Assembly (NCBI GenBank): GCA_014728145.1 | Contig: WJMC01000038.1 | Span: forward strand, 1-37,953 | Reading direction: 5' to 3' | Origin: Candidatus Zixiibacteriota bacterium | Lineage (GTDB): Bacteria > Zixibacteria > MSB-5A5 > JAABVY01 | Length of the DNA stretch: 37,953 nt | Shown here: positions 8,869-23,052 of the stretch, one piece after another | Layout of the letters: every line of letters begins with the position of its first letter | Numbering within the stretch: position 1 is the stretch's first letter | The notes under the pieces: generated by a model | What the model was told of the DNA's origin: nothing | The model's input: only the letters and a program-made list of their open reading frames with translations | Database searches by the model: none | Position numbers and translations under genes: made by a program

Positions 8869-8930
8869 ACCGATACTCTCAGTCTTTTTCCTTAATTAAA
8901 ACTATAAATCGACAGCAGGAGTTGTATGAC

Positions 8931-10949
8931 ATGAATACAAGCGTTAAGATAATCCCCAAAACAACCGCTTTGGCGATTTTGGTCTTCGTCTTTATGAGCA
9001 CGCTTTTTATTTCCGGTTCAGCCAATGCGCAGTTGAGCCGGTCCCAACTGGATCAACTGCAAAAGCGCGCGCAAGCCGAAGACTGGACATTCGAGATAAG
9101 CGAAAACCCGGCCACACAGCAGTCGCTGGATAACTTGTGTGGTTTGAAAGAGCCGGAGAACTGGCGTGAAAATGCCAGTTTTGATCCCTGTACTCCTAAA
9201 CGTGAGCTTCCGGAGTATTTCGACTGGAGAGATTCCGGTTATTGCACTCCGATCCGTAACCAATCAAGTTGTGGAAGCTGTTGGGCTTTCGGATCTGTCG
9301 GACCGCTGGAAAGCAATATACTTCGTGTCGACGGTTTGGAGGTCGACCTCTCCGAGCAGTGGCTGGTGAGCTGTAACAGCGAAGGCTGGGGTTGTGACGG
9401 TGGATGGTTCGCCCATGACTACCATCAGTTCAAGACCGATCCCTGTGGTGGAACCGGGGCGGTCTACGAGAGCGATTTCCCGTACACCGCAACCGATGAG
9501 GCCTGCAACTGTCCCTACGAGCATCATTTCACAATAGATTCGTGGTCGTATATCGGAGGCAGTTCAACAGTTCCCGCGCCCGACGCGATCAAGCAGGCGA
9601 TACTCGATCACGGCCCGGTTTCGGTGGCGGTGATCGTGACTTCGGCAATGCAGGGTTACAGTGGCGGTGTTTTCAACGCTCCCGCGACCGGAAGTGTCAA
9701 TCATGCGGTTGTGCTGGTTGGCTGGGATGACAGTCAGGGGACCAACGGTGTCTGGTTTATGCGCAACTCCTGGGGGACCGGCTGGGGCGAAGATGGCTAT
9801 ATGCGGATCGAATACGGTGTGGCTGATATCGGCTATGGTGCCTGCTACGTCGAATATTCCGGTGTGGATAAGCTGGCAATAGAATATGTCAGTGAGCCCC
9901 CGGAATTTGTAATGCCGGGAGAACAGCACAGTTTCCAGGTCTCGGTCGAGGGCATTTACGGCGGTCAGCCTATGTCACAGAGCGGGACGTTGCATTATTC
10001 GATCAACGGCGAAGCGTATCAAACGTCTGCGATGACCGAGATCGAAACGAACCTCTACGAAGCGAAACTGCCCGCGCTTGAATGTTATGATTTCATCGAT
10101 TTCTATGTCTCCGCGGTCGAGGCGTCAGGTGACACTATTTACAGCCCGGTTGGAATGAATCCCTACAGCGCGGTAGCCACTACGGAAGTGGTCGATGTCT
10201 TCTCCGATGATTTCGAGACGGACCAGGGCTGGGTGGTGACCGGCAACGCTGTCGATGGACAGTGGAATCGCGGCATCCCGGTCAATTATGGTCGTGGCGA
10301 TCCGGTCAGCGATTACGATGGTTCCGGCCAGTGTTACCTGACCGACAATTACGCCGGTAATTCCGATGTCGATGATGGAAGTACAATTTTGACTTCACCG
10401 ATTTTCGACCTGAGCGAGAGTGAAGCAATTATCAAATACGCTCGCTGGTATTCCAACAGTTACGGGGCCGATCCCTATAATGACCAGATGCAGGTCTATG
10501 TCTCCAACGACGCCGGCCAGAACTGGGTGCTGGTGGAAAATATCGGACCGGTGGAACAGTCCTCCGGCGGATGGTATACCAATACCTTCTGGGTCTCCGA
10601 CCTGGTGACACCGAGTTCTCTGATGCAACTGCGCTTCAACGCTTCCGACCTGAGTTCCGGTTCGGTTGTGGAGGCGGCGGTTGACGCGGTCGAGGTCAAA
10701 ACCCTGCTGTGCGGTCCGCAGTATGTCTGTGGTGATGTCAACGCCGATGAAATCGTTGATGTCTCGGACGCTGTCTATATCGTTAACTTCGCCTTTGCCG
10801 GCGGTCCGGCTCCGGACCCGATCGAAGCTGGCGATGTTACCTGCGATCTGACGGTCGATGTCTCCGACGCTGTCTTTATCATTAATTTCGCTTTCTCGTC
10901 AGGTTTCATGCCCTGCGATACCGATGGTGACGGTGAACCGGATTGTTGA
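8931..10949 (+). CDS. Secreted papain-like (C1A) cysteine protease with dockerin-like tail
   Basis: A 672-residue secreted protease. The signal peptide (MNTSVKIIPK... ending SANAQ) is followed by a short pro-region and a C1A catalytic domain. Gln111 and nucleophile Cys117 lie in NQSSCGSCWAF, His258 in NHAVVLVGWDD, and Asn279 in RNSWGTGWGEDGY, so all catalytic residues are present. A beta-sandwich region follows, then a jelly-roll-like domain (about residues 430-595, DDFETDQGWVVTG... opening) of the kind that often assists secreted enzymes. The 73-residue dockerin-like module ends the protein. The ATG at 8931 is preferred to an in-frame TTG at 8922 because AGGAG sits 9 bases before the ATG but touches the TTG. 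A strong terminator follows. Bacterial C1A proteases are less common than subtilases. The natural substrate is unknown. Confidence 0.93.
   Translation: MNTSVKIIPKTTALAILVFVFMSTLFISGSANAQLSRSQLDQLQKRAQAEDWTFEISENPATQQSLDNLCGLKEPENWRENASFDPCTPKRELPEYFDWRDSGYCTPIRNQSSCGSCWAFGSVGPLESNILRVDGLEVDLSEQWLVSCNSEGWGCDGGWFAHDYHQFKTDPCGGTGAVYESDFPYTATDEACNCPYEHHFTIDSWSYIGGSSTVPAPDAIKQAILDHGPVSVAVIVTSAMQGYSGGVFNAPATGSVNHAVVLVGWDDSQGTNGVWFMRNSWGTGWGEDGYMRIEYGVADIGYGACYVEYSGVDKLAIEYVSEPPEFVMPGEQHSFQVSVEGIYGGQPMSQSGTLHYSINGEAYQTSAMTEIETNLYEAKLPALECYDFIDFYVSAVEASGDTIYSPVGMNPYSAVATTEVVDVFSDDFETDQGWVVTGNAVDGQWNRGIPVNYGRGDPVSDYDGSGQCYLTDNYAGNSDVDDGSTILTSPIFDLSESEAIIKYARWYSNSYGADPYNDQMQVYVSNDAGQNWVLVENIGPVEQSSGGWYTNTFWVSDLVTPSSLMQLRFNASDLSSGSVVEAAVDAVEVKTLLCGPQYVCGDVNADEIVDVSDAVYIVNFAFAGGPAPDPIEAGDVTCDLTVDVSDAVFIINFAFSSGFMPCDTDGDGEPDC
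10728..10946 (+). repeat. 73-residue dockerin-like C-terminal module, copy 2
   Basis: Same length and cysteine positions (1, 39, 63, 73) as the other four copies. The two loops are DVNADEIVDVSD and DVTCDLTVDVSD, and the end is PCDTDGDGEPDC. Position 3 of the second loop is Thr instead of Asn, which may weaken calcium binding. Confidence 0.9.
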
Positions 10950-11237: not shown

Positions 11238-13673
11238 ATGAATGATTATAAGTATATCCGCTGGTTTGAAGATCTCGGTTCCGAAGAAGTTGATATCGTC
11301 GGTGGCAAAAATGCTTCATTGGGAGAGATGATTAGTGCTCTCCGGGAAGAGAGCATTTTAGTTCCGGCGGGATTTGCGACGACCTCCGAAGCCTATCACG
11401 ACTATATTCGTGAAAATGATATCAAGGATAAACTCTCGGAAAAACTGGGTAAGCTCAAAAAAGACATGAGCAACCTGGGCAAGATCGGCAAATCAATTCG
11501 TCGCTTGTTTTTAAAAGGTGAATTCAGTGATGAAGCATCCGGGGAAATCCGCAGTGCATACGCAGAGCTTTCCCGTCGCAACGATCGCGAGGAGGTCGGG
11601 GTAGCTGTCAGAAGCAGTGCCACAGCTGAGGATCTGCCCGATGCCAGTTTTGCCGGTCAACAGGAGACGTTTTTGAATATCTCTGGCGAAGATGATGTTC
11701 TGGATGCGTGCAAAAGGTGTTATGCTTCGCTGTTTACCAATCGGGCGATCAGTTACCGAATCGAACGCGGGTTTGATCATTTGGATGTAGCCCTTTCAAT
11801 CGGAATACAGAAGATGGTGCGTGCCGATAAAGCCGGTTCAGGTGTTATGTTTTCTATCGATACCGAATCCGGTTTCGAAAAAGTGGTCGTCATCGATGCC
11901 GCCTGGGGACTGGGTGAAAATGTCGTCCAGGGAGCTGTCAATCCGGATGAGTACCAGGTCTTCAAGCCTCTTTTGAATAAGGATAATTTCAAACCAATCA
12001 TCGACAAGACTCTTGGAGACAAGTCCAAAAAAATGGTATACGCCCGCAACGGTTCGGTTAATACCCGTAATGTGGATACATCCAAAAAGGAAAGAAACAG
12101 CTATGTGCTCAACGATGATGAGATTATCAGGCTGGCGCGCTGGGCTGTGAAAATAGAAGATCATTACGGCAGGCCGATGGACATGGAGTGGGCCAAGGAT
12201 GGTCAGGATAATGAATTATATATTGTCCAGGCACGACCTGAAACTGTTCAATCTCAAAAAGAAGGTTTATCAATCAAGTCATTCGAGCTCAAAGAAGAGG
12301 GCGAGAAAATACTTTCCGGCCTCAGTATTGGAGAGGCGATCGCTTCCGGCAAAGCTCAGATCATCAAGGATGCCAATGATATCGATGATTTTAATAACGG
12401 TTCTATCCTGGTTACCGGCATGACAGATCCGGACTGGGTGCCGATTATGAAGAAATCGGCTGGAATCGTTACCGACTATGGCGGACGAACTTCGCACGCC
12501 GCAATTGTCAGCCGCGAACTCGGAATACCGGCTATCGTTGGAACCGCTGAGGCTACAGAGGCAATCGCGGACGGCCAGGAGATTACAATAGATTGTACTT
12601 CAAGTGACGAGGGGATTGTGTATGACGGGAGTTTGGATTTCGAGGAATCTGAAATGGATCTCAAAAAAGTACCTGAAACCAAAACCGAGATAAAAATGAA
12701 TATTGCCAGTCCCGGCGCGGCTTTCAGGTGGTGGCGTTTACCAGCCAGAGGGATCGGTTTGGCCAGGATGGAATTCATTATAAATAATTCGATAAAAATC
12801 CATCCCCGGGCACTTTTAGAGTACGACAACCTTGAAGATAAGCAGGTTAAAAAAAGTATTCGCAGGCTAACTCGTGGCTACGCTAACAAGGAAGACTACT
12901 TCATTATCAATCTGTCACAGGGAATCGCCCGGATCGCCGCTTCTCAGCATCCTTACCAGGTGCTGGTTCGTATGAGCGATTTCAAGTCAAACGAGTATGC
13001 CGATCTTATCGGAGGTGGCCCATTCGAACCCTCAGAAGAAAATCCAATGCTCGGATTCAGGGGCGCCTCACGGTATTATAACGATAAATTCAGGGGAGCT
13101 TTCTCGCTTGAATGCAGGGCGATCAGGAAAGTTCGCGATGAACTGGGCCTTTCCAATGTCGCTATCATGATACCGTTTTGCCGTACACTCGCAGAAGCCG
13201 ATCGAATTCTTGAAATACTGGCCGAAAACGACCTGGAACGTGGCCGGAACGGTTTGCAGGTTTATGTCATGTGTGAGATTCCTTCCAATGTTATACTGGG
13301 CAGGGAATTCGCACAGCGCTTTGACGGTTTTTCGATTGGCACCAATGACCTGACCCAGCTCGTGCTCGGAATAGATCGTGACTCTGAGATTTTGAGTGGC
13401 CTCTTCGATGAACGAAATGAAGCTGTCAAACGCATGATATCTGATTTGATTGTAAAAGCCCATGAAGAAAACTGTGAGGTCGGGATCTGTGGCCAGGCGC
13501 CCAGCGATCATCCCGACTTTGCTGAGTTTCTGGTCCGATCGGGTATCGATTCAATCTCACTGAATCCTGACCGTGTACTGGATGTTATCCATAAAGTTGC
13601 AAAAGTGGAAGCAGAGATGGGCACAGATAAACAAAAAATAAAACAGCAACCCGGTGCGACTGTTGAATCATAA
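11238..13673 (+). CDS. ppsA: Phosphoenolpyruvate synthase
   Basis: An 811-residue cytoplasmic enzyme that makes PEP from pyruvate and ATP, releasing AMP and phosphate. The N-terminal ATP-grasp region has VGGKNASLGEM (22-31 area), AVRSSATAEDLPDASFAGQQ (123-142) and the ASGxxR-like swivel region. The phosphohistidine domain carries His420 in DYGGRTSHAAIVSRELGIP. The C-terminal barrel carries GTNDLTQLVLGIDRDS and catalytic Cys751 in GICGQAPSDHP. The order and length fit PpsA rather than pyruvate phosphate dikinase. The ATG has GGAGGTG eight bases upstream. It lies behind the repeat array and is followed 39 bp later by dodecin. With a nearby D-2-hydroxyacid dehydrogenase it places pyruvate metabolism beside the N-ATPase. 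This link is an inference. Confidence 0.95.
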   Translation: MNDYKYIRWFEDLGSEEVDIVGGKNASLGEMISALREESILVPAGFATTSEAYHDYIRENDIKDKLSEKLGKLKKDMSNLGKIGKSIRRLFLKGEFSDEASGEIRSAYAELSRRNDREEVGVAVRSSATAEDLPDASFAGQQETFLNISGEDDVLDACKRCYASLFTNRAISYRIERGFDHLDVALSIGIQKMVRADKAGSGVMFSIDTESGFEKVVVIDAAWGLGENVVQGAVNPDEYQVFKPLLNKDNFKPIIDKTLGDKSKKMVYARNGSVNTRNVDTSKKERNSYVLNDDEIIRLARWAVKIEDHYGRPMDMEWAKDGQDNELYIVQARPETVQSQKEGLSIKSFELKEEGEKILSGLSIGEAIASGKAQIIKDANDIDDFNNGSILVTGMTDPDWVPIMKKSAGIVTDYGGRTSHAAIVSRELGIPAIVGTAEATEAIADGQEITIDCTSSDEGIVYDGSLDFEESEMDLKKVPETKTEIKMNIASPGAAFRWWRLPARGIGLARMEFIINNSIKIHPRALLEYDNLEDKQVKKSIRRLTRGYANKEDYFIINLSQGIARIAASQHPYQVLVRMSDFKSNEYADLIGGGPFEPSEENPMLGFRGASRYYNDKFRGAFSLECRAIRKVRDELGLSNVAIMIPFCRTLAEADRILEILAENDLERGRNGLQVYVMCEIPSNVILGREFAQRFDGFSIGTNDLTQLVLGIDRDSEILSGLFDERNEAVKRMISDLIVKAHEENCEVGICGQAPSDHPDFAEFLVRSGIDSISLNPDRVLDVIHKVAKVEAEMGTDKQKIKQQPGATVES

Positions 13674-13956: not shown

Positions 13957-13992
13957 GGGGGACATCTTGGCCAAGATGTCCCCCAACTTTTT
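13957..13992 (+). terminator. Intrinsic terminator after dodecin, perfect 28-bp palindrome
   Basis: GGGGGACATCTTGG (13957-13970) is followed directly by its reverse complement (13971-13984), then AACTTTTT. It closes the ppsA-dodecin unit and separates it from the ATPase operon. The remaining 56 bp before atpD hold no clear promoter hexamers. Confidence 0.85.
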
Positions 13993-14003
13993 AAAGATAC
14001 TAA

Positions 14004-15488
<1,485 letters not shown>

Positions 15489-15489
15489 A

Positions 15490-15876
15490 ATGAGGCTTAA
15501 AGTTTTAGTGCCGCATAAGGTTTTCTTCAATACTGAAGTTGACAACGTCAGTGCCGAGGGGATGGAAGGTTCATTCAGCCTGAGGCCGAATCATATCGAC
15601 TATGTCTCCGCGCTTACTGCCGGAATTTTGACATATAAAATAGATAATGAAGACAGGTATATGGCACACGACGAGGGAATCCTGGTCAAAAATGGCGATC
15701 AGGTTATGATATCCACTTATAAAGCGATTAAAGACCGGCCACTGGGTGAACTCCAGAAAGCAATTGAAAAGGAGATAAAAGAGTTAAGCGACCAGGAAAA
15801 AAAGGCGCGTTCTTCGCTGGCGATGCTGGAAGGCAGTATCATCCGCAAATACACCGAACAGACTCACATGGAATGA
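15490..15876 (+). CDS. atpC: N-type ATPase epsilon subunit
   Basis: 128 residues, starting one base after the atpD stop. The N-terminal beta-sandwich shows the epsilon pattern: MRLKVLVPHKVFF, EGMEGSFSLRPNHIDYVSALTAGILTYK and HDEGILVKNGDQVMI. A C-terminal helical part (IEKEIKELSDQEKKARSSLAMLEG) follows. Epsilon sits on the central stalk with gamma and can restrain ATP hydrolysis. Its place directly after atpD, at the front of the operon, is a hallmark of N-ATPases. Confidence 0.9.
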   Translation: MRLKVLVPHKVFFNTEVDNVSAEGMEGSFSLRPNHIDYVSALTAGILTYKIDNEDRYMAHDEGILVKNGDQVMISTYKAIKDRPLGELQKAIEKEIKELSDQEKKARSSLAMLEGSIIRKYTEQTHME

Positions 15877-15888
15877 TGAATTTGACCT

Positions 15889-16170
15889 ATGGAAGATAAA
15901 TTCGGCAAAAAAATCGGAGAAAAGGAACAGCGTAAACTTAAAGCCAAACGCGATAAAAACAGATCCGGCCTGTGGTTCGGGTTGGGGATGTTCGGGTTGG
16001 TCGGATGGTCGGTGGCGATACCGACATTGATCTGCTTGGCGATCGGTATCTGGCTCGATTCAAAGAATCCGGGAAGTATCTCCTGGACATTGACATTTCT
16101 GGTGGTCGGAGTAATTCTCGGTTCACTCAACGCCTGGTACTGGGTCAAACGGGAGAGCAGTCGTGAATAA
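15889..16170 (+). CDS. atpQ: N-type ATPase AtpQ (AtpI-like membrane protein)
   Basis: 93 residues. A charged N-terminus (EKEQRKLKAKRDKNRSG) is followed by two membrane helices (about 28-54 and 63-86) with the AtpI/AtpQ-like segment VAIPTLICLAIGIWLD. AtpQ is found in N-ATPase operons and is thought to help assemble the c-ring or import magnesium or calcium, by analogy with AtpI. The ATG follows atpC by 12 bp without a strong ribosome-binding site, so translation is probably coupled. The last 8 bases overlap the next gene. Confidence 0.85.
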   Translation: MEDKFGKKIGEKEQRKLKAKRDKNRSGLWFGLGMFGLVGWSVAIPTLICLAIGIWLDSKNPGSISWTLTFLVVGVILGSLNAWYWVKRESSRE

Positions 16171-17401
16171 CGCATCACATTTCATGATTCTGACACTTGT
16201 AATCGGGCTGGTTCTTCTGGCAGTAAGGCTTTTCGGATCTTATCTCAGGCGGATCGGGCTTCCCGCCATGGTTGCCTTTATCCTGCTGGGAATCATTTTG
16301 CGGGCAAGCGATTCACATTTTGAATGGATGACGACCGCCGGGGAAGATGTCTTCGAGTTTTTAGCCAAACTGGGATTGGTTATGCTGTTGTTTCGAATCG
16401 GCTTGGAAAGTGATATCAAGATGTTGTTTAAGAGACTTCGCAGAGCTTCATTGATCTGGCTGGGAAATATCCTGATAAGTTTTGCCGTCGGTTATGCCAC
16501 GGCCTATTATCTGCTCGGTTTCGATTTGGTTCCAAGCCTGTTTACCGGATCAGCTCTGCTGGCTACTTCGGTCGGAGTTTCGATCGGCATATGGAAGGAA
16601 GCCGGTCAACTCAAGTCACGACTGGGTGAAATCTTAACAGATGTTGCTGAGCTGGATGATATCACAGGTATTATCGTGATCGCAGTTTTATTTTCGATCG
16701 TACCGCTCTTGAGGGAACAGACCTCATCAGGCACATTGCTGATGCAGGTCCTGCAGGAAAGCGGAATGATTCTGCTTAAGCTGATTTTATTCGGTGGAAT
16801 CTGCCTTTTGTTCTCTATTTACCTGGAAGAACGACTGGTGCGCTTTTTCAAAAACCTGCAGGAAGAATCCGAACCGATTATCGTTATCGCCGGATTCGGT
16901 ATAGTTCTGGCCTCGCTGGCCGGGCTGATGGGATTTTCTTTGGCGATTGGAGCGTTTTTTGCCGGAGCGGCTTTCGCCCGCGATCCGGAACATGTCAAAA
17001 TCGATGCCTCCTTTTCATCGCTGTATTCATTTCTGAGCCCGTTTTTTTTCATCGGAATCGGTCTCAAAGTCAGTCTGATATCGGCAACCGCCGCAATCGG
17101 AGTTGGCGCCGTACTGACAGTGGCCGCGGTAATCGGCAAGATTGTCGGCACCAGCACAATAGCGATCTTCAGCGAGGGCCTGGGCGGTTCTGCTATACTG
17201 GGAATCAGCATGATTCCCCGTGCTGAAATCGCCTTGATAATTATGCAGAAGGGTCTCGCCCTGGGAAGCTGGGCAGTATCATCGAAACTGTTTTCCGCGA
17301 TGGTGTTCGTCTCTGCTGTAACCTGCATAATGACTCCTCTGGTGGTGAGGGCGATGCTCAACAGATGGCCTCAAGCACGGACAGGGAAAGCAAACTCATG
17401 A
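16163..17401 (+). CDS. CPA2-type monovalent cation/proton antiporter inserted in the N-ATPase operon
   Basis: A 412-residue inner-membrane exchanger with about 12 hydrophobic segments. The N-terminus LPAMVAFILLGIILR, the segment ALLATSVGVSIGIWKEAG, the acidic pair Asp165-Asp166 in AELDDITGIIV and the late IPRAEIALIIMQKGLALG all match the Na+/H+ exchanger domain of the KefB/NapA-like CPA2 family. The aspartate pair is typical of electrogenic members. There is no nucleotide-binding (TrkA-N) domain. The GTG start at 16163 has GGGAGAG upstream and overlaps atpQ by 8 bp; the stop overlaps the atpR start by 4 bp (ATGA). Such tight joins point to a fixed part of the operon. It probably trades Na+ for H+ next to the ion-pumping ATPase; the transported ion is an inference. 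Confidence 0.92.
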   Translation: MNNASHFMILTLVIGLVLLAVRLFGSYLRRIGLPAMVAFILLGIILRASDSHFEWMTTAGEDVFEFLAKLGLVMLLFRIGLESDIKMLFKRLRRASLIWLGNILISFAVGYATAYYLLGFDLVPSLFTGSALLATSVGVSIGIWKEAGQLKSRLGEILTDVAELDDITGIIVIAVLFSIVPLLREQTSSGTLLMQVLQESGMILLKLILFGGICLLFSIYLEERLVRFFKNLQEESEPIIVIAGFGIVLASLAGLMGFSLAIGAFFAGAAFARDPEHVKIDASFSSLYSFLSPFFFIGIGLKVSLISATAAIGVGAVLTVAAVIGKIVGTSTIAIFSEGLGGSAILGISMIPRAEIALIIMQKGLALGSWAVSSKLFSAMVFVSAVTCIMTPLVVRAMLNRWPQARTGKANS

Positions 17402-17688
17402 GCATAATCATTAAGTTGTTGATCGGGCTGGTTGCCGGTCTGCTGATCGGAATCTTTAACTACAATTTGCTCTGGCTGACTGTCAGATATATTACCCAAA
17501 GCAATCGTCGGGTTGTGATCATGATCGTCAGCTTCTTTCTGCGTATGGCTGTAGTGTTGGGAGTTTTCTATTTACTGGCGATTCGAACAGGCTGGATTTC
17601 GGTTCTGGCCGGTTTGGTCGGGATGATTCTGATGCGTACGCTTCTGATTAAAAAGTATAGTCCGAAAAGCGAACGGCATTCTCTGTGA
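17398..17688 (+). CDS. atpR: N-type ATPase AtpR
   Basis: 96 residues with three membrane segments, beginning MSIIIKLLIGLVAGLLIGIF. AtpR is specific to N-ATPase operons. The conserved arginines are thought to contact the acidic residues of the c subunit during ring assembly, and here R30 (LLWLTVRYI) and R49 (SFFLRMAVV) lie at the edges of helices. The ATG at 17398 overlaps the antiporter stop as ATGA and has GGGAAAG upstream. An upstream in-frame ATG inside the antiporter gene was rejected because it lacks these signals. atpB starts 7 bp downstream. Confidence 0.85.
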   Translation: MSIIIKLLIGLVAGLLIGIFNYNLLWLTVRYITQSNRRVVIMIVSFFLRMAVVLGVFYLLAIRTGWISVLAGLVGMILMRTLLIKKYSPKSERHSL

Positions 17689-17695
17689 AAGGCGG

Positions 17696-18448
17696 ATGAG
17701 TATGAACATCAGTCCTGATTCTATCATCTACTGGGAATGGGATTTCTTCAAGGTCAGCGCCACTATCCTGTTTACCTGGGTGGTGATGGCGATTCTGGTC
17801 CTGATTTCATTTCTGGTAACCAGGAATATCAAGAGCGGTCTCGAGATGTCGCGCTGGCAGAGTTTCCTGGAGACTCTGGTCGGCTATATTCGCAATCAGA
17901 TTCGTGAGATAGTGCGCGGAGATCCCAAGATCTATCTGCCGTTTCTGGGAAGTTTGTTTATGTTCATCTCGCTTTCGAATCTTTTGGCTTTCGTGCCGGG
18001 ATATCATCCCCCCACAGGCTCGATCTATACCACCGGAGCTCTGGCTTTATGTGTTTTTTTCGCGGTCCCGATATTCGGTATCGCCCGTGCCGGAGTGGGT
18101 GGATATTTGAAACATTATATTTCGCCGACTCCTATCATGTTTCCGTTTCTGGTGATCTCGGAGTTTTCGCGGACTCTTGCCCTGGCGGTGCGTCTGTTCG
18201 GCAATGTCCTGAGCGGGACTATGATCGCCGCGATCCTTTTGGCGGTAGCGCCTTTTTTCGTGCCGGTGGTGATGCAGGCTTTAAGTCTTCTGATCGGCCA
18301 GATTCATGCCTACATCTTCGCGGTTCTGGCGGCGGTCTACATCGGCTCAGCGGCGCGGGCTCGTTCGGAAGAGGAGCATGAAAGCGGTAAAGAAGATGAT
18401 AAAGATAAAGAAGGGAGAGATGGTGAAAGTGATGAATCCGAAAAATGA
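17696..18448 (+). CDS. atpB: N-type ATPase subunit a
   Basis: 250 residues, the stator channel of the membrane motor. The essential arginine is R166 in LALAVRLFGNVLSG. The other conserved features are PFLGSLFMFISLSNLLAFVPGYHPPT near residues 82-107 and GQIHAYIFAVLAAVYIG near 201-217. After the last helix the protein carries a very charged tail of about 29 residues (SEEEHESGKEDDKDKEGRDG and on), which is unusual for subunit a. A second ATG six bases on (17702) is better placed relative to GAAAGG and may be the true start. A gap of 48 bp separates it from atpE. Confidence 0.94.
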   Translation: MSMNISPDSIIYWEWDFFKVSATILFTWVVMAILVLISFLVTRNIKSGLEMSRWQSFLETLVGYIRNQIREIVRGDPKIYLPFLGSLFMFISLSNLLAFVPGYHPPTGSIYTTGALALCVFFAVPIFGIARAGVGGYLKHYISPTPIMFPFLVISEFSRTLALAVRLFGNVLSGTMIAAILLAVAPFFVPVVMQALSLLIGQIHAYIFAVLAAVYIGSAARARSEEEHESGKEDDKDKEGRDGESDESEK

Positions 18449-18496
18449 TCTGATAACGATATACAATTCAATGAATATAGAAGAGGAGGACAACTG

Positions 18497-18778
18497 ATGG
18501 ACAGCGTAACATTAATCGGAGCGGCTTCGGTTCTGGCCTCCGGGCTGGCGATTTCTATCGGTTCGATCGGTCCCGCTCTGGGTGAGGGTCGCGCGCTGGC
18601 GAGGGCGTTGGATTCAATGGCGCAACAGCCGGATGAATCCAGCAATATCACCCGGACCCTGTTTGTCGGCATGGCCATGATAGAATCGACAGCGATTTAC
18701 TGCTTCGTGATCGCCATCATCCTGATTTTTGCCAACCCGTTCTGGAATCATGTAACCGCGCAGGCGGGAGGTCAATAG
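18497..18778 (+). CDS. atpE: N-type ATPase c subunit (rotor ring)
   Basis: 93 residues, two helices joined by a polar loop (MAQQPDESSN). The ion-binding glutamate is E63 in MIESTAIYCF, followed by S64, T65 and Y68. This is the same E-S-T-x-x-Y pattern as in sodium-binding c subunits such as that of Ilyobacter. In the first helix the usual Gln32 of that family is replaced by E30 (GPALGEGRA), exactly 33 residues before E63 as in the model protein. N-ATPase c subunits commonly have two carboxylates. The motif favours Na+, but the Burkholderia N-ATPase was shown to pump H+, so ion choice is open. AGGAGG lies 8 bases before the ATG. Confidence 0.93.
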   Translation: MDSVTLIGAASVLASGLAISIGSIGPALGEGRALARALDSMAQQPDESSNITRTLFVGMAMIESTAIYCFVIAIILIFANPFWNHVTAQAGGQ

Positions 18779-18780
18779 AA

Positions 18781-19605
18781 ATGCAAATTGACTGGTTTAC
18801 ATTGATCGCGCAGATCGTAAACTTTCTGATTCTGGTCTGGCTCTTGAAGCATTTTCTCTACGATCGGATCGTCAAGGCGATGGACAAGCGTCGTGAGAAA
18901 ATCGCCGCAAAAATAAATGAAGCCGACGACACGAAGTCGGAAGCGGAAAAACTTCGCTCCGAATATCAGGATAAGCTTTCTGACCTGGAAGACAAACAAG
19001 ATGAGATCATATCCGAGGCCAGAGAGAAAGCCGAAGAAAAACGCAAAGAGATGACGCGCCAGGCCAGAGAAGAGATCGAAAAAATGCGCCAAAGCTGGAA
19101 GGAAGCGCTCGAAAACGAAAAACAATCAGTCGTAGAAGAGCTTCGTCGCAACGCCGCGCGCCAGGTTTTCGGTATCTCGCGCAAGGTGCTGAATGAATTG
19201 GCGGATGTCGAGATCGAGGAGAGGATCGTGGAAAGATTTCTGGATCGTTTCTCCGAGCTCAGCCAGAAAGATATGGATAAGCTGAAAGCGACCGCGAAAA
19301 GCAAAGACAGCGACGTCAGAATTGACTCAGCCTTCGAGATCTCCGGCAAAAATCGCGAGAAACTGACCAAAAGGCTCAAACAGGTCTTAGACGGAATCAA
19401 AGATATTGACTATCAAACTGATAGCGACCTTCTGGGCGGTGTGGTTCTTGAAGCGGGTGGTCAGAGAGTCGAATGGAATATCGCTGACTACCTGGAAAAT
19501 CTCGAAAACGATTTCAAAAACCGTCTTTCTAACTTGAAAAGCGAAACAGCAGAAGCGGAAAATCAAACAGATAGCGAACGGAAATCTGAAAGCGAAGAAA
19601 AGTAA
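18781..19605 (+). CDS. atpF: N-type ATPase subunit b with delta-like C-terminus
   Basis: A 274-residue peripheral stalk protein, longer than the usual b subunit of about 160. One membrane helix (DWFTLIAQIVNFLILVWLLKHFLY) is followed by a long charged coiled coil to about residue 150. The last third contains a stretch resembling the C-terminal part of the delta subunit: DSDLLGGVVLEAGGQRVEW near residue 215-233. No separate atpH gene occurs in the operon, so this protein probably does the delta job too, as known for N-ATPases. It begins 2 bp after the atpE stop. The very C-terminus is a Ser/Glu/Lys-rich tail. Confidence 0.9.
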   Translation: MQIDWFTLIAQIVNFLILVWLLKHFLYDRIVKAMDKRREKIAAKINEADDTKSEAEKLRSEYQDKLSDLEDKQDEIISEAREKAEEKRKEMTRQAREEIEKMRQSWKEALENEKQSVVEELRRNAARQVFGISRKVLNELADVEIEERIVERFLDRFSELSQKDMDKLKATAKSKDSDVRIDSAFEISGKNREKLTKRLKQVLDGIKDIDYQTDSDLLGGVVLEAGGQRVEWNIADYLENLENDFKNRLSNLKSETAEAENQTDSERKSESEEK

Positions 19606-19609
19606 CATT

Positions 19610-21151
19610 ATGAGTTACAAAACTAAAGATCTGAGGACTCTTCTGGACGACACCCTGAAGGTGATAGAAGAATCCAGAGAGGATTACATTCATGAGCTCC
19701 GGCTATACGAAAGCGGCCGCGCGATCTCGGTCACTTCCAGTATCGCCTGGATCAAAGGGTTGCAGGGTGCCGGATATCAGGAGCTTCTGCGTTTTGCGGG
19801 TGATTTACGCGGTATGGTCTTCAACCTCCGGCCGAAAAGGCTGGGAGTCGTGCTTTTGGATAAAGGGGCTGAAATCCCGGTCGGGAGCGAGGTTCGTCGC
19901 ACACGCAGTGTGGTCGATGTGCCGGTCGGCGAAGCGCTTCTGGGCCGGGTTGTCGACGCGGTCGGTCGTCCCCAGGATGGACAGGGGCAGATTCGTTCTG
20001 ATGAGAGACTGCCAATCGAAAGGGAAGCGCCTCCAATGATCGAACGAGATCCGGTCAAAAAACCGCTTCAGACCGGCGTCAAGGCTGTCGATACGCTGAT
20101 ACCGATCGGACGGGGGCAACGCGAATTGATACTGGGCGACCGCAAAACCGGCAAGACCGCGATTGCAGTCGACACGATCATAAATCAACGTGGCCGGAAC
20201 GTGGCCTGCATTTACTGCGCGATCGGCAAAAAAAGCTCCGATATCGCTTCGGTCATCGACGATTTAAAAGAATATGATGCTCTCGATTATACCACCGTAG
20301 TTGCCACATCGGGCGAGGATCCGCCTGGATTGAAATTCGTTGCGCCATACGCCGCCTGTTCGATGGGCGAATATTTCCGAGATCGTGGTCAGGACGCTTT
20401 GGTGATTTATGACGATCTGACGCTGCATGCCAGAGCCTACCGCGAACTCTCGCTTTTGTTGAGACGTCCTCCTGCGCGCGAGGCGTATCCGGGTGATATT
20501 TTCTATATTCATTCCCGTCTGCTGGAGCGAGCCACTCATTTGAATAAAGAACTCGGCGGCGGTTCGCTGACCGCTCTGCCGATAATCGAGACTCAGGCAC
20601 AAAACATTTCGGCCTATATCCCGACCAACCTGATCTCGATTACCGACGGACAGATATATCTCTCGCCCAAGCTCAATCGCCAGGGGATTCTGCCGGCTAT
20701 TGATGTGGGCAAATCGGTTTCCCGTGTGGGCGGCAAGACCCAGCTTCCAGCTTACCGCGGACTGGCCGGCGATCTGAAGCTGGCTTACTCGCAGTTCGAA
20801 GAACTGGAAACATTTTCACGTTTCAGCACCCGGCTGGATGAAGAGACCCGCGCCAAGCTGAAACGGGGCGAACAGGTCCGCGAAGCGCTCAAACAGCCCC
20901 AGTATCAGCCGATCAGTGTGCCCGAACAGATCGCTGTCCTGGTGGCCGTCAACCGTGGCCTCTTTGACAGAATCGATACCGATCAGGTCACCGAGGCTTC
21001 GCAAAAAGTACGCAGGGTGATGACGGACAAAGTGGAAAAAATATCCGCTAAAATCCAAGAAGGTGAAAAGCTCTCTGACGACGATCTGGATAAATTGGAA
21101 ACATTGTTTAAGCAAGCCCTCGATCTGAAGGATTCAGATGCTGACTCTTGA
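19610..21151 (+). CDS. atpA: N-type ATPase alpha subunit
   Basis: 513 residues, the non-catalytic nucleotide-binding partner of beta in the ATPase head. The P-loop is GDRKTGKTAIAVDTI (176-183 for the core), and the alpha signature regions APYAACSMGEYFRDRGQDAL, IYDDLTLHARAYRELSLLLRRPP and FYIHSRLLERA are intact. The RQGILPAIDVGKSVSRVGGKTQ region near the C-terminal third is typical. The start is the ATG 4 bp after atpF, with only a weak ribosome-binding site, so translation may be coupled. Its last 14 bp overlap atpG. Confidence 0.96.
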   Translation: MSYKTKDLRTLLDDTLKVIEESREDYIHELRLYESGRAISVTSSIAWIKGLQGAGYQELLRFAGDLRGMVFNLRPKRLGVVLLDKGAEIPVGSEVRRTRSVVDVPVGEALLGRVVDAVGRPQDGQGQIRSDERLPIEREAPPMIERDPVKKPLQTGVKAVDTLIPIGRGQRELILGDRKTGKTAIAVDTIINQRGRNVACIYCAIGKKSSDIASVIDDLKEYDALDYTTVVATSGEDPPGLKFVAPYAACSMGEYFRDRGQDALVIYDDLTLHARAYRELSLLLRRPPAREAYPGDIFYIHSRLLERATHLNKELGGGSLTALPIIETQAQNISAYIPTNLISITDGQIYLSPKLNRQGILPAIDVGKSVSRVGGKTQLPAYRGLAGDLKLAYSQFEELETFSRFSTRLDEETRAKLKRGEQVREALKQPQYQPISVPEQIAVLVAVNRGLFDRIDTDQVTEASQKVRRVMTDKVEKISAKIQEGEKLSDDDLDKLETLFKQALDLKDSDADS

Positions 21152-22073
21152 AGCTCTGCAACACAAAATCTCAAGCGGTGAAGACCTCTTATCAGTAGTC
21201 AAGACCATGAAGGCGATGGCGGCAGTCAGTATTCGTCAGTATGAAAAGGCGGTCGAATCAGCAGAGGCCTACTTTGATACGGTAGAACTTGGATTTCGGG
21301 CGCTCTTTCGTCGGGGTCGAAATATCGGCGACCTGATTGCTGGTTACCAGAAGACCGAGACAACGATAGTCCTCGCGGTCGGTTCGGATCAGGGGATGTG
21401 CGGTCAGTTCAATGAGAGGATTTTTGGCCTGATGGAAAACGGCTTGAATGAATTGGAAAACGAAAATCAAAACCTCAGAGTTCTGGCGATTGGTGCCAAG
21501 CTGAGCGGTTTGATATCGAGTTCTGATACTGAATTAAAACAAACATTCCGCGCCCCCGCTTCGATTCGCACTGTATCCAGCACGGTCGAGGAAATCCTGT
21601 TTTATCTGAGTCAGGTCGGCAGCGAGGTGGGCATTTTCAGCCTGCATCTCTACTACAATGCCAAAAGTTCCGGTTCCAGCTATGAGCCGCTTCATATCAT
21701 GCTTCTGCCTTTCGGTCTAAACTATGCGGAAAATTTGAGAGAGAAAGGCTGGCAGAGCGACCAGATTCCTTCTTTTCGGATTTCAAGTCGTCAATTGTTG
21801 TCGTCACTGACTCGGCAGTATATGTTCGCCGGTCTCTACCGTGCCCTGGCGGAATCACTGGCCAGCGAAAACGCCAGCCGACTGGCGGCAATGCAGGCGG
21901 CCGAGAAAAACATCGAGGAGCGACTAAAGCAGTATACCACCGAATACCACCACCAGAGACAGGAAAGCATTACCTCTGAGCTTCTGGATATGGTGGCCGG
22001 ATTCGAAGCCCTGACCGGTGATGACGAAGATGAAGAGGAGGATAGTGATGAAGACAGCGTTTCTGGAATGTGA
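21138..22073 (+). CDS. atpG: N-type ATPase gamma subunit
   Basis: 311 residues, the rotating central shaft. The N-terminal helix contains LLSVVKTMKAMAAVSIRQYE, and the C-terminal helix contains ENASRLAAMQAAEKNIEERLK, the two halves of the coiled coil that enters the alpha/beta ring. GSDQGMCGQFNERI in the middle matches the gamma Rossmann-like domain. It overlaps atpA by 14 bp and the dehydrogenase gene by 26 bp. After the coiled coil the protein ends in an acidic run (GDDEDEEEDSDEDSVSGM), absent from usual gamma subunits. The overlap with the next gene explains part of this extension. Confidence 0.93.
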   Translation: MLTLEALQHKISSGEDLLSVVKTMKAMAAVSIRQYEKAVESAEAYFDTVELGFRALFRRGRNIGDLIAGYQKTETTIVLAVGSDQGMCGQFNERIFGLMENGLNELENENQNLRVLAIGAKLSGLISSSDTELKQTFRAPASIRTVSSTVEEILFYLSQVGSEVGIFSLHLYYNAKSSGSSYEPLHIMLLPFGLNYAENLREKGWQSDQIPSFRISSRQLLSSLTRQYMFAGLYRALAESLASENASRLAAMQAAEKNIEERLKQYTTEYHHQRQESITSELLDMVAGFEALTGDDEDEEEDSDEDSVSGM

Positions 22074-23052
22074 AGAATGGGAAAAGCAAATCATACAGGA
22101 TCTTTTAAAAATTGACCATATCAAATTCTCCGAAAAGGAATTATCGGCTGAAAATGTTGAAAATTATGCCGACTTCGAGATAATTTCAACTTTCATCTAT
22201 TCAGATCTCGACCTGAAGGTGCTTGAGAAACTGGATAATCTAAAGATGATCGCCACCCGTTCGACCGGATTCGACCATATCGATATGGATTACTGCAAAG
22301 AAAATGATATCATTGTCTCCAACGTCCCCACTTACGGCTCGCGGACTGTGGCTGAACATGTCTTCGGACTTTTATTGACGATCAGTCATAACCTGACTGA
22401 AGCGATCGATCGCACCCGCAAGGGTGATTTCTCGCAGGAAGGCCTTTCAGGATTCGATCTTCACGGAAAAATCCTGGGGATAATCGGTACCGGAAAGATT
22501 GGTCGTCGCGCGATTGAAATCGCCCGGGGGTTTGCTATGCAGGTTCTGGCTTTCGATGTGAAACCGGATGAGGAACTGGCCGATAAATTCGGTTTCGAGT
22601 ATGTCGATTTCGACCAGCTTTTGGAAGAATCGGATGTGATCAGTTTGCATGTGCCTGCCAACAAAAAGACCCGGCATATGATAGCGAAAGATCAGTTCGA
22701 GAAGATGAAAGCGGGAGTGGTTCTGATCAATACCTCGCGCGGTTCGGTGATCGATGTCGAGGCTCTGGTCAATGCCCTGGGAAGCGGAAAAGTTCGAGCG
22801 GCAGGTCTGGATGTGTTACCCGAAGAGCCTGTAATTCGCGAGGAGGCCGAGCTTCTGCGCAGTGTTTTCCGTCGTGAACACGACCTGGAGACTCTTCTGG
22901 CCAATCATATCCTGCTCAGGCTTCGCAATGTCGTAGTCACTCCCCACAGCGCTTTCAATACCAGAGAAGCGGTAACCCGGATTCTGAAAACCTCGGCTGA
23001 AAATATACGCTCATTCATGGAAGGCAAACCACAAAATGAAGTCAGCGGTTAA
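22048..23052 (+). CDS. D-2-hydroxyacid dehydrogenase (D-lactate dehydrogenase-like)
   Basis: A 334-residue NAD-dependent enzyme of the D-isomer-specific 2-hydroxyacid dehydrogenase family. The NAD-binding fold has GIIGTGKIGRRA (G147, G149, G152). Catalytic residues are Arg231 (INTSRGSVIDV), Glu260 (DVLPEEP) and His300 (VVTPHSAFNT). The N-terminal signature TRSTGFDHIDMDYCKEN is typical of the D-lactate dehydrogenase branch, though the 2-oxoacid substrate cannot be read from sequence. The ATG at 22048 has AGGAGG eight bases upstream and lies inside the atpG gene by 26 bp, so the enzyme is co-transcribed with the ATPase. It may reoxidise NADH during fermentation while the ATPase uses fermentation ATP to keep an ion gradient. 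That pairing is an inference. Confidence 0.88.
   Translation: MKTAFLECEEWEKQIIQDLLKIDHIKFSEKELSAENVENYADFEIISTFIYSDLDLKVLEKLDNLKMIATRSTGFDHIDMDYCKENDIIVSNVPTYGSRTVAEHVFGLLLTISHNLTEAIDRTRKGDFSQEGLSGFDLHGKILGIIGTGKIGRRAIEIARGFAMQVLAFDVKPDEELADKFGFEYVDFDQLLEESDVISLHVPANKKTRHMIAKDQFEKMKAGVVLINTSRGSVIDVEALVNALGSGKVRAAGLDVLPEEPVIREEAELLRSVFRREHDLETLLANHILLRLRNVVVTPHSAFNTREAVTRILKTSAENIRSFMEGKPQNEVSG

Follow-up and report, generated by a model that had tools for sequence, protein, structure and literature searches.

A predicted NapA-type antiporter gene between atpQ and atpR recurs in N-ATPase operons of seven bacterial phyla as a probable functional partner of the ATPase

Two questions attach to the N-ATPase, the alternate F1Fo-ATPase encoded by atpDCQRBEFAG: its role in the cell and the ion it transports. 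In the stretch of DNA analyzed here (37,953 nucleotides, positions 1 to 37,953 of contig WJMC01000038.1 from a Candidatus Zixiibacteriota genome, hereafter the window) such an operon carries, between atpQ and atpR, a gene for a CPA2 antiporter of 412 amino acids, here called X for both gene and protein; operons with and without it are denoted X+ and X-. The locus raises the question of what an ion exchanger does inside the operon of a rotary ATPase: whether it is a stray insertion, a subunit, or a partner in ion transport.

The complete N-ATPase operon extends from 14040 to 22073 on the + strand in the order D-C-Q-[X]-R-B-E-F-A-G, as assigned from open reading frames, Pfam and NCBIfam (Table 1). 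All nine N-ATPase subunits score above the curated NCBIfam cut-offs, seven of them with the 'alternate F1F0' TIGR models and the remaining two with the atpQ and atpR models. Both atpQ and atpR are present and a separate delta gene is absent, as expected of an N-ATPase, and X is the sole interruption of the gene order. The preliminary description of this region, given for 15889–17688 and thus taking in atpR at its end, had placed the antiporter inside the operon with overlaps of 8 bp with atpQ and 4 bp with atpR, which the open reading frames and both profile collections bear out. The GTG start of X overlaps the stop of atpQ (16170) by 8 bp (GTGAATAA) and its TGA stop overlaps the likely ATG of atpR at 17398 by 4 bp (ATGA). 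With the start of the longest atpR reading frame at 17365 the latter overlap would be 37 bp.

Table 1. Genes of the N-ATPase operon and the gene upstream of it (positions in the window)
Feature	Position	Strand	Evidence
ppsA, phosphoenolpyruvate synthase	11238..13673	+	TIGR01418 above cut-off
atpD, N-ATPase beta subunit	14040..15488	+	TIGR03305 771.8 bits, cut-off 752
atpC, epsilon subunit	15490..15876 (likely start 15490; longest ORF from 15370)	+	TIGR03166 112.6 bits, cut-off 100.1
atpQ, ATPase_gene1 family membrane protein	15889..16170	+	TIGR02230, PF09527 above cut-off
X, NapA-like CPA2 Na+/H+ antiporter (predicted)	16163..17401	+	PF00999 4e-49; NapA 5bz2 6e-35 by sequence; Foldseek 1.5e-13
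atpR	17398..17688 (longest ORF from 17365)	+	PF12966 9e-18; TIGR03165 above cut-off
atpB, subunit a	17696..18448	+	TIGR03306 above cut-off
atpE, subunit c: E30, E63-S64-T65..Y68 sodium-ligand motif	18497..18778	+	TIGR03322 above cut-off; motif counts
atpF, subunit b, delta/OSCP-like C terminus	18781..19605	+	TIGR03321 above cut-off; PF00213 over 171-243
atpA, alpha subunit	19610..21151	+	TIGR03324 above cut-off
atpG, gamma subunit	21138..22073	+	TIGR03323 above cut-off

Between ppsA and atpD lies a terminator-like hairpin (13957–13984, stem of 12 bp). Co-transcription of ppsA with the operon in the window is therefore doubtful, and ppsA is probably a separate transcript. Regarding the neighborhood of N-ATPase operons more widely, ppsA is found directly upstream of 6 out of 22 X+ but 0 out of 46 X- operons (Fisher p = 7e-4, with related sequences counted separately). 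These cases are the window and the loci L046, L047, L057, L091 and L278; a free X, in locus L052, likewise has ppsA directly upstream. Locus L046 (1395–10357, from a Desulfobacteraceae MAG) reads ppsA-C-Q-X-R-B-E-F-A-G, and atpD was not found between ppsA and atpC. Universal stress protein-like genes are likewise found repeatedly upstream of X+ operons, and upstream of one free X (L047, L052, L055, L279). A D-2-hydroxyacid dehydrogenase gene (22018–23052) follows downstream in overlap with the end of atpG; one further Zixibacteria genome (L044) shows this synteny. The window furthermore encodes a papain-family cysteine protease with a dockerin domain (8922–10949).

The solved structure closest to X is that of NapA from Thermus thermophilus (CPA2; PDB 5bz2, 4bwz), by profile (7e-37) as well as by sequence and by fold (Foldseek E-value in Table 1), the AlphaFold model of X having a pLDDT of 90 and a pTM of 0.90. 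D165, D166 and K326 of X align with D156, D157 and K305 of NapA and are invariant in 52/52 aligned family members. According to Masrati et al. (PMC6181914), electrogenic exchange goes along with Asp at both position 6 and position 7 of the motif plus Lys at position 8, and Na+ selectivity of CPA2 proteins with a non-polar side chain at TM4 position 4. X has the residues of the electrogenic type in that scheme, i.e. Asp 6, Asp 7 and Lys 8 with V161 instead of Glu at position 5, and its TM4 segment reads A-T-S-V, as does that of NapA. X misses the cut-off of the CPA2 family model TIGR00932 (105.2 bits vs 238.3), so that its assignment to CPA2 is based on fold and motif. A tree separates the X family, as its own clade, from the remaining CPA2 proteins of the phylum. 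Two further acidic residues near the aspartate pair of the ion site, D160 and E163 (window numbering), hardly vary within the X family, and 8 other CPA2 proteins from the phylum lack them; an influence on ion binding is possible. X differs from NapA in these clade-specific residues, in an overall identity of only about 25%, and in being encoded in a rotary ATPase operon. It is best read as a NapA-type electrogenic Na+/H+ antiporter, as predicted from homology, modeled fold and motif residues.

AtpR is present in 4 of 132 Zixibacteria genomes, and the same four genomes and no others encode a close relative of X (46–75% identity; other antiporters reach about 30%). All four N-ATPases of the phylum have the order D-C-Q-X-R-B-E-F-A-G. 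A profile made from the four antiporters was scanned against a collection of species genomes and yielded 48 relatives of X, 18 of which are located inside an N-ATPase operon, in Zixibacteria, Desulfobacterota, Calditrichota, KSB1, Cyanobacteria, Planctomycetota and Alpha- and Gammaproteobacteria. Counting Pseudomonadota as one phylum, the Q-X-R order thus occurs in six phyla besides Zixibacteria, seven altogether, and the adjacency is tight and conserved across them. It is also found in the N-ATPase operon of a complete Acaryochloris plasmid; a search of plasmids for further copies returned one record only. To avoid the bias of starting from the antiporter, N-ATPases outside Zixibacteria were also sampled via AtpR. 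In this sample atpQ is visible in 87 operons and X adjoins it in 7 of them; one of these copies is truncated to a remnant, which leaves roughly 7%. The remnant type is seen in the cyanobacterial locus L284 (G539:C9; also L152), where the N-terminal part of X only is left between atpQ and atpR, apparently a recent loss of X.

Conversely, X also occurs without the ATPase. For 26 of the 48 loci an intact N-ATPase gene is absent close by; in one locus X lies 4.5 kb upstream of an N-ATPase operon lacking an internal X, and three are partial or distant. Several genomes with a free X have no AtpR anywhere. Inspection of the neighbors of the free antiporters showed no shared partner gene. In the alkaliphile Desulfatitalea alkaliphila (L061:8813–12967) what appears to be the start of atpD is fused to the end of atpQ and X is intact; 7 bp downstream of X follows a type-II P-type cation ATPase, whose best models are Ca2+ types, below cut-off. 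The sequence of the junction shows a putative deletion scar, with X retained after loss of the ATPase genes. X has thus been kept without an N-ATPase and, in this one case, again beside a primary cation pump. Together with the small X+ fraction outside Zixibacteria, the 26 lone relatives indicate that neither X nor the N-ATPase needs the other. X is best understood as an exchanger that can stand on its own and is paired with a primary pump, and an obligate subunit is made unlikely by the free relatives and the Desulfatitalea deletion.

The preliminary description had named co-inheritance of antiporter and ATPase within the lineage as a test of its reading. For the ATPase we used a tree of AtpD, AtpB, AtpE and AtpA. 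X+ and X- operons are intermixed on it, with 13 label changes of which at least 8 are forced by supported branches. This rules out a single clean clade of X+ operons; nonetheless, X+ labels are clustered beyond what is seen with shuffled labels. Among 22 X+ operons the divergence of X follows that of the ATPase (Mantel r = 0.75, with 0 of 5000 permutations as high). The same coefficient is 0.76–0.77 for the true subunits F, G and R and 0.63 for Q, so that X is near the former and above the latter. Between the 7 groups congruence is weaker than within them (r = 0.61, 161 of 5040 permutations as high). In 21/26 X+ operons the start of X precedes the stop of atpQ by exactly 8 bp. As evidence of a single origin this exact overlap is only suggestive, since in 11 of 40 operons without X the start of atpR has the same offset from atpQ. 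In one genome (G141) X lies about 20 kb from the N-ATPase on the same contig, and its X and its ATPase cluster with one and the same set of X+ relatives, an arrangement that fits an old association with separations. We read these patterns as a probably old association of X and ATPase that was lost many times and in some cases split up or transferred. Of the outcomes named in the preliminary description as counting against its reading, an adjacency missing from every related genome and, within the lineage, an antiporter tree without relation to that of the ATPase, neither was observed.

The ion transported by the ATPase bears directly on any joint function. AtpE of the window has the N-ATPase c-subunit pattern, with Glu in both helices and ESTxxY (residues in Table 1), and the Na+ ligands are kept in 26/26 X+ operons. 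The genome of the window has in addition an ordinary F-ATPase, seen as a second c subunit with a proton-type site (contig C166). Na+ as the ion of the N-ATPase in X+ operons is predicted from the c-subunit motif, and it is not certain, because the N-ATPase of Burkholderia pseudomallei transports H+ and not Na+ (PMC5376962). The idea that the antiporter sets the ion used by the ATPase, raised in the preliminary description, found no support: the c-subunit ligands are identical in X+ and X- operons, and the X family also exists without N-ATPases. Of primary Na+ pumps, Rnf and Nqr were sought and not found in the 4 Zixibacteria genomes, so the N-ATPase may be a main one there. In Synechococcus 7002 N-ATPase transcripts are not raised by salt (PMC3468840).

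The gene order with its overlaps, its recurrence across phyla, the matched divergence, the intact catalytic residues and the existence of ATPase-free family members all point to a functional pair of X and N-ATPase, which we regard as likely; that the two act as one ion-cycling unit, as had been proposed, can reasonably be inferred. Our preferred reading, which we hold with modest confidence as somewhat better than an even chance, is that X is the electrogenic NapA-type antiporter of an N-ATPase operon variant that recurs and is co-inherited, a functional partner and not a subunit. Against it count the low X+ share outside Zixibacteria and the lone relatives of X, the weaker congruence between groups, the H+ transport by the B. 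pseudomallei enzyme and the Synechococcus 7002 transcripts that do not rise with salt. The N-ATPase would hydrolyze ATP and export Na+, one charge leaving per Na+, and so build up membrane potential. X would spend this potential, exporting one Na+ and importing 2 H+ with one net charge entering. At one to one the two would be electroneutral, 2 Na+ leaving and 2 H+ entering at the expense of ATP. In this way the pair would bring down both the Na+ of the cell and cytoplasmic pH while needing no respiration and leaving the membrane potential undrained. Such a respiration-free electroneutral Na+/H+ exchange would fit conditions of high salinity, of high pH or of a low proton motive force. Na+ pumping by the N-ATPase, the stoichiometry of X and the direction of the circuit are all predicted here, the direction being what we infer from gene content.

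Among the alternatives, the one that keeps a small but appreciable chance is that X and N-ATPase are parallel Na+ exporters under one promoter, X working on proton motive force and the ATPase on ATP under alternate conditions with no coupled circuit. Na+ export is predicted for both, and each occurs without the other; against it, overlapping genes and matched divergence favor a fixed ratio over alternation. A little less probable still is a converter running in reverse, in which Na+ exported by the N-ATPase re-enters via X and drives H+ out, so that ATP would be converted to a proton gradient once respiration ceases. The gene set would be the same, and many of the carriers fall in groups that include anaerobes (Desulfobacterota). 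However, an exchanger of 2 H+ per Na+ would run in this direction only at very low proton motive force, and the ordinary proton-type F-ATPase of the genome could pump H+ directly by ATP hydrolysis.

We consider it improbable that X serves the N-ATPase as a subunit with an accessory or assembly role. Its position between two small genes, one of which, atpR, is thought to aid assembly or activity of the c-ring (PMC4154653, PMC9927469), and a divergence matching that of subunits would suit such a role; on the other hand X retains all its catalytic residues, has free relatives in genomes without AtpR, survives the ATPase deletion in Desulfatitalea, and is missing from the majority of N-ATPases. 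A physical complex of X and N-ATPase is possible but unlikely, and to the same low degree as a subunit role we would credit a single membrane complex in which the rotary Na+ pump passes ions locally to the exchanger as an ATP-driven electroneutral exchange machine. Finally, although the window stems from a draft genome of 255 contigs, an assembly artefact or a chance insertion in one lineage has a negligible probability, and the preliminary description had already argued from the overlaps against a chance insertion: the order recurs in independent assemblies including the isolates Mastigocoleus testarum BC008, Henriciella aquimarina and Marinicaulis flavus and on the complete plasmid, which rules out a MAG artefact.

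An antiporter gene inside the N-ATPase operon has, as far as we could find, not been discussed in the literature, although the Q-X-R order is visible in databases, where public annotation already names an antiporter gene in this place. The full texts on N-ATPases (main text, with Dibrova et al. 2010 and figures outside the scope) contain no description of an antiporter inside the operon, and where they state a gene order it has nine genes or fewer, in agreement with the nine-gene operon without exchanger given in the preliminary description. An operon-embedded antiporter in seven phyla links the N-ATPase to the homeostasis of Na+ and H+, and a charge-balanced circuit is predicted from it, which bears on the questions of role and ion. 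X+ and X- operons, together with the genome that kept X and lost the ATPase, provide a natural contrast for studying the role of the ATPase.

Compared to known systems, the operon of the window shares with the standard N-ATPase its nine subunits, their order, the c-subunit motif and the coexistence with an ordinary F-ATPase, and differs in a tenth gene, the antiporter, between atpQ and atpR. With the plasmid-borne sodium-dependent N-ATPases of Acaryochloris marina (PMC8949462) it has the sodium-type c subunit and the link to salt in common, and one Acaryochloris plasmid carries X; the text of that paper, its gene map figure aside, names no antiporter within the operon. The Na+-ATPase operon of Aphanothece halophytica, as cited there, is likewise a salt-linked N-ATPase with a sodium-type c subunit. 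Pelobacter carbinolicus (PMC3543383) and Ca. Nitrospira alkalitolerans (PMC7784846) have an N-ATPase and separately encoded antiporters. The physiological idea is common to these organisms and the window, namely that Na+ and H+ gradients are interconverted or balanced; there, however, Mrp, NhaA, NhaB and NhaD are treated as separate systems, whereas in the window the antiporter is part of the ATPase operon.
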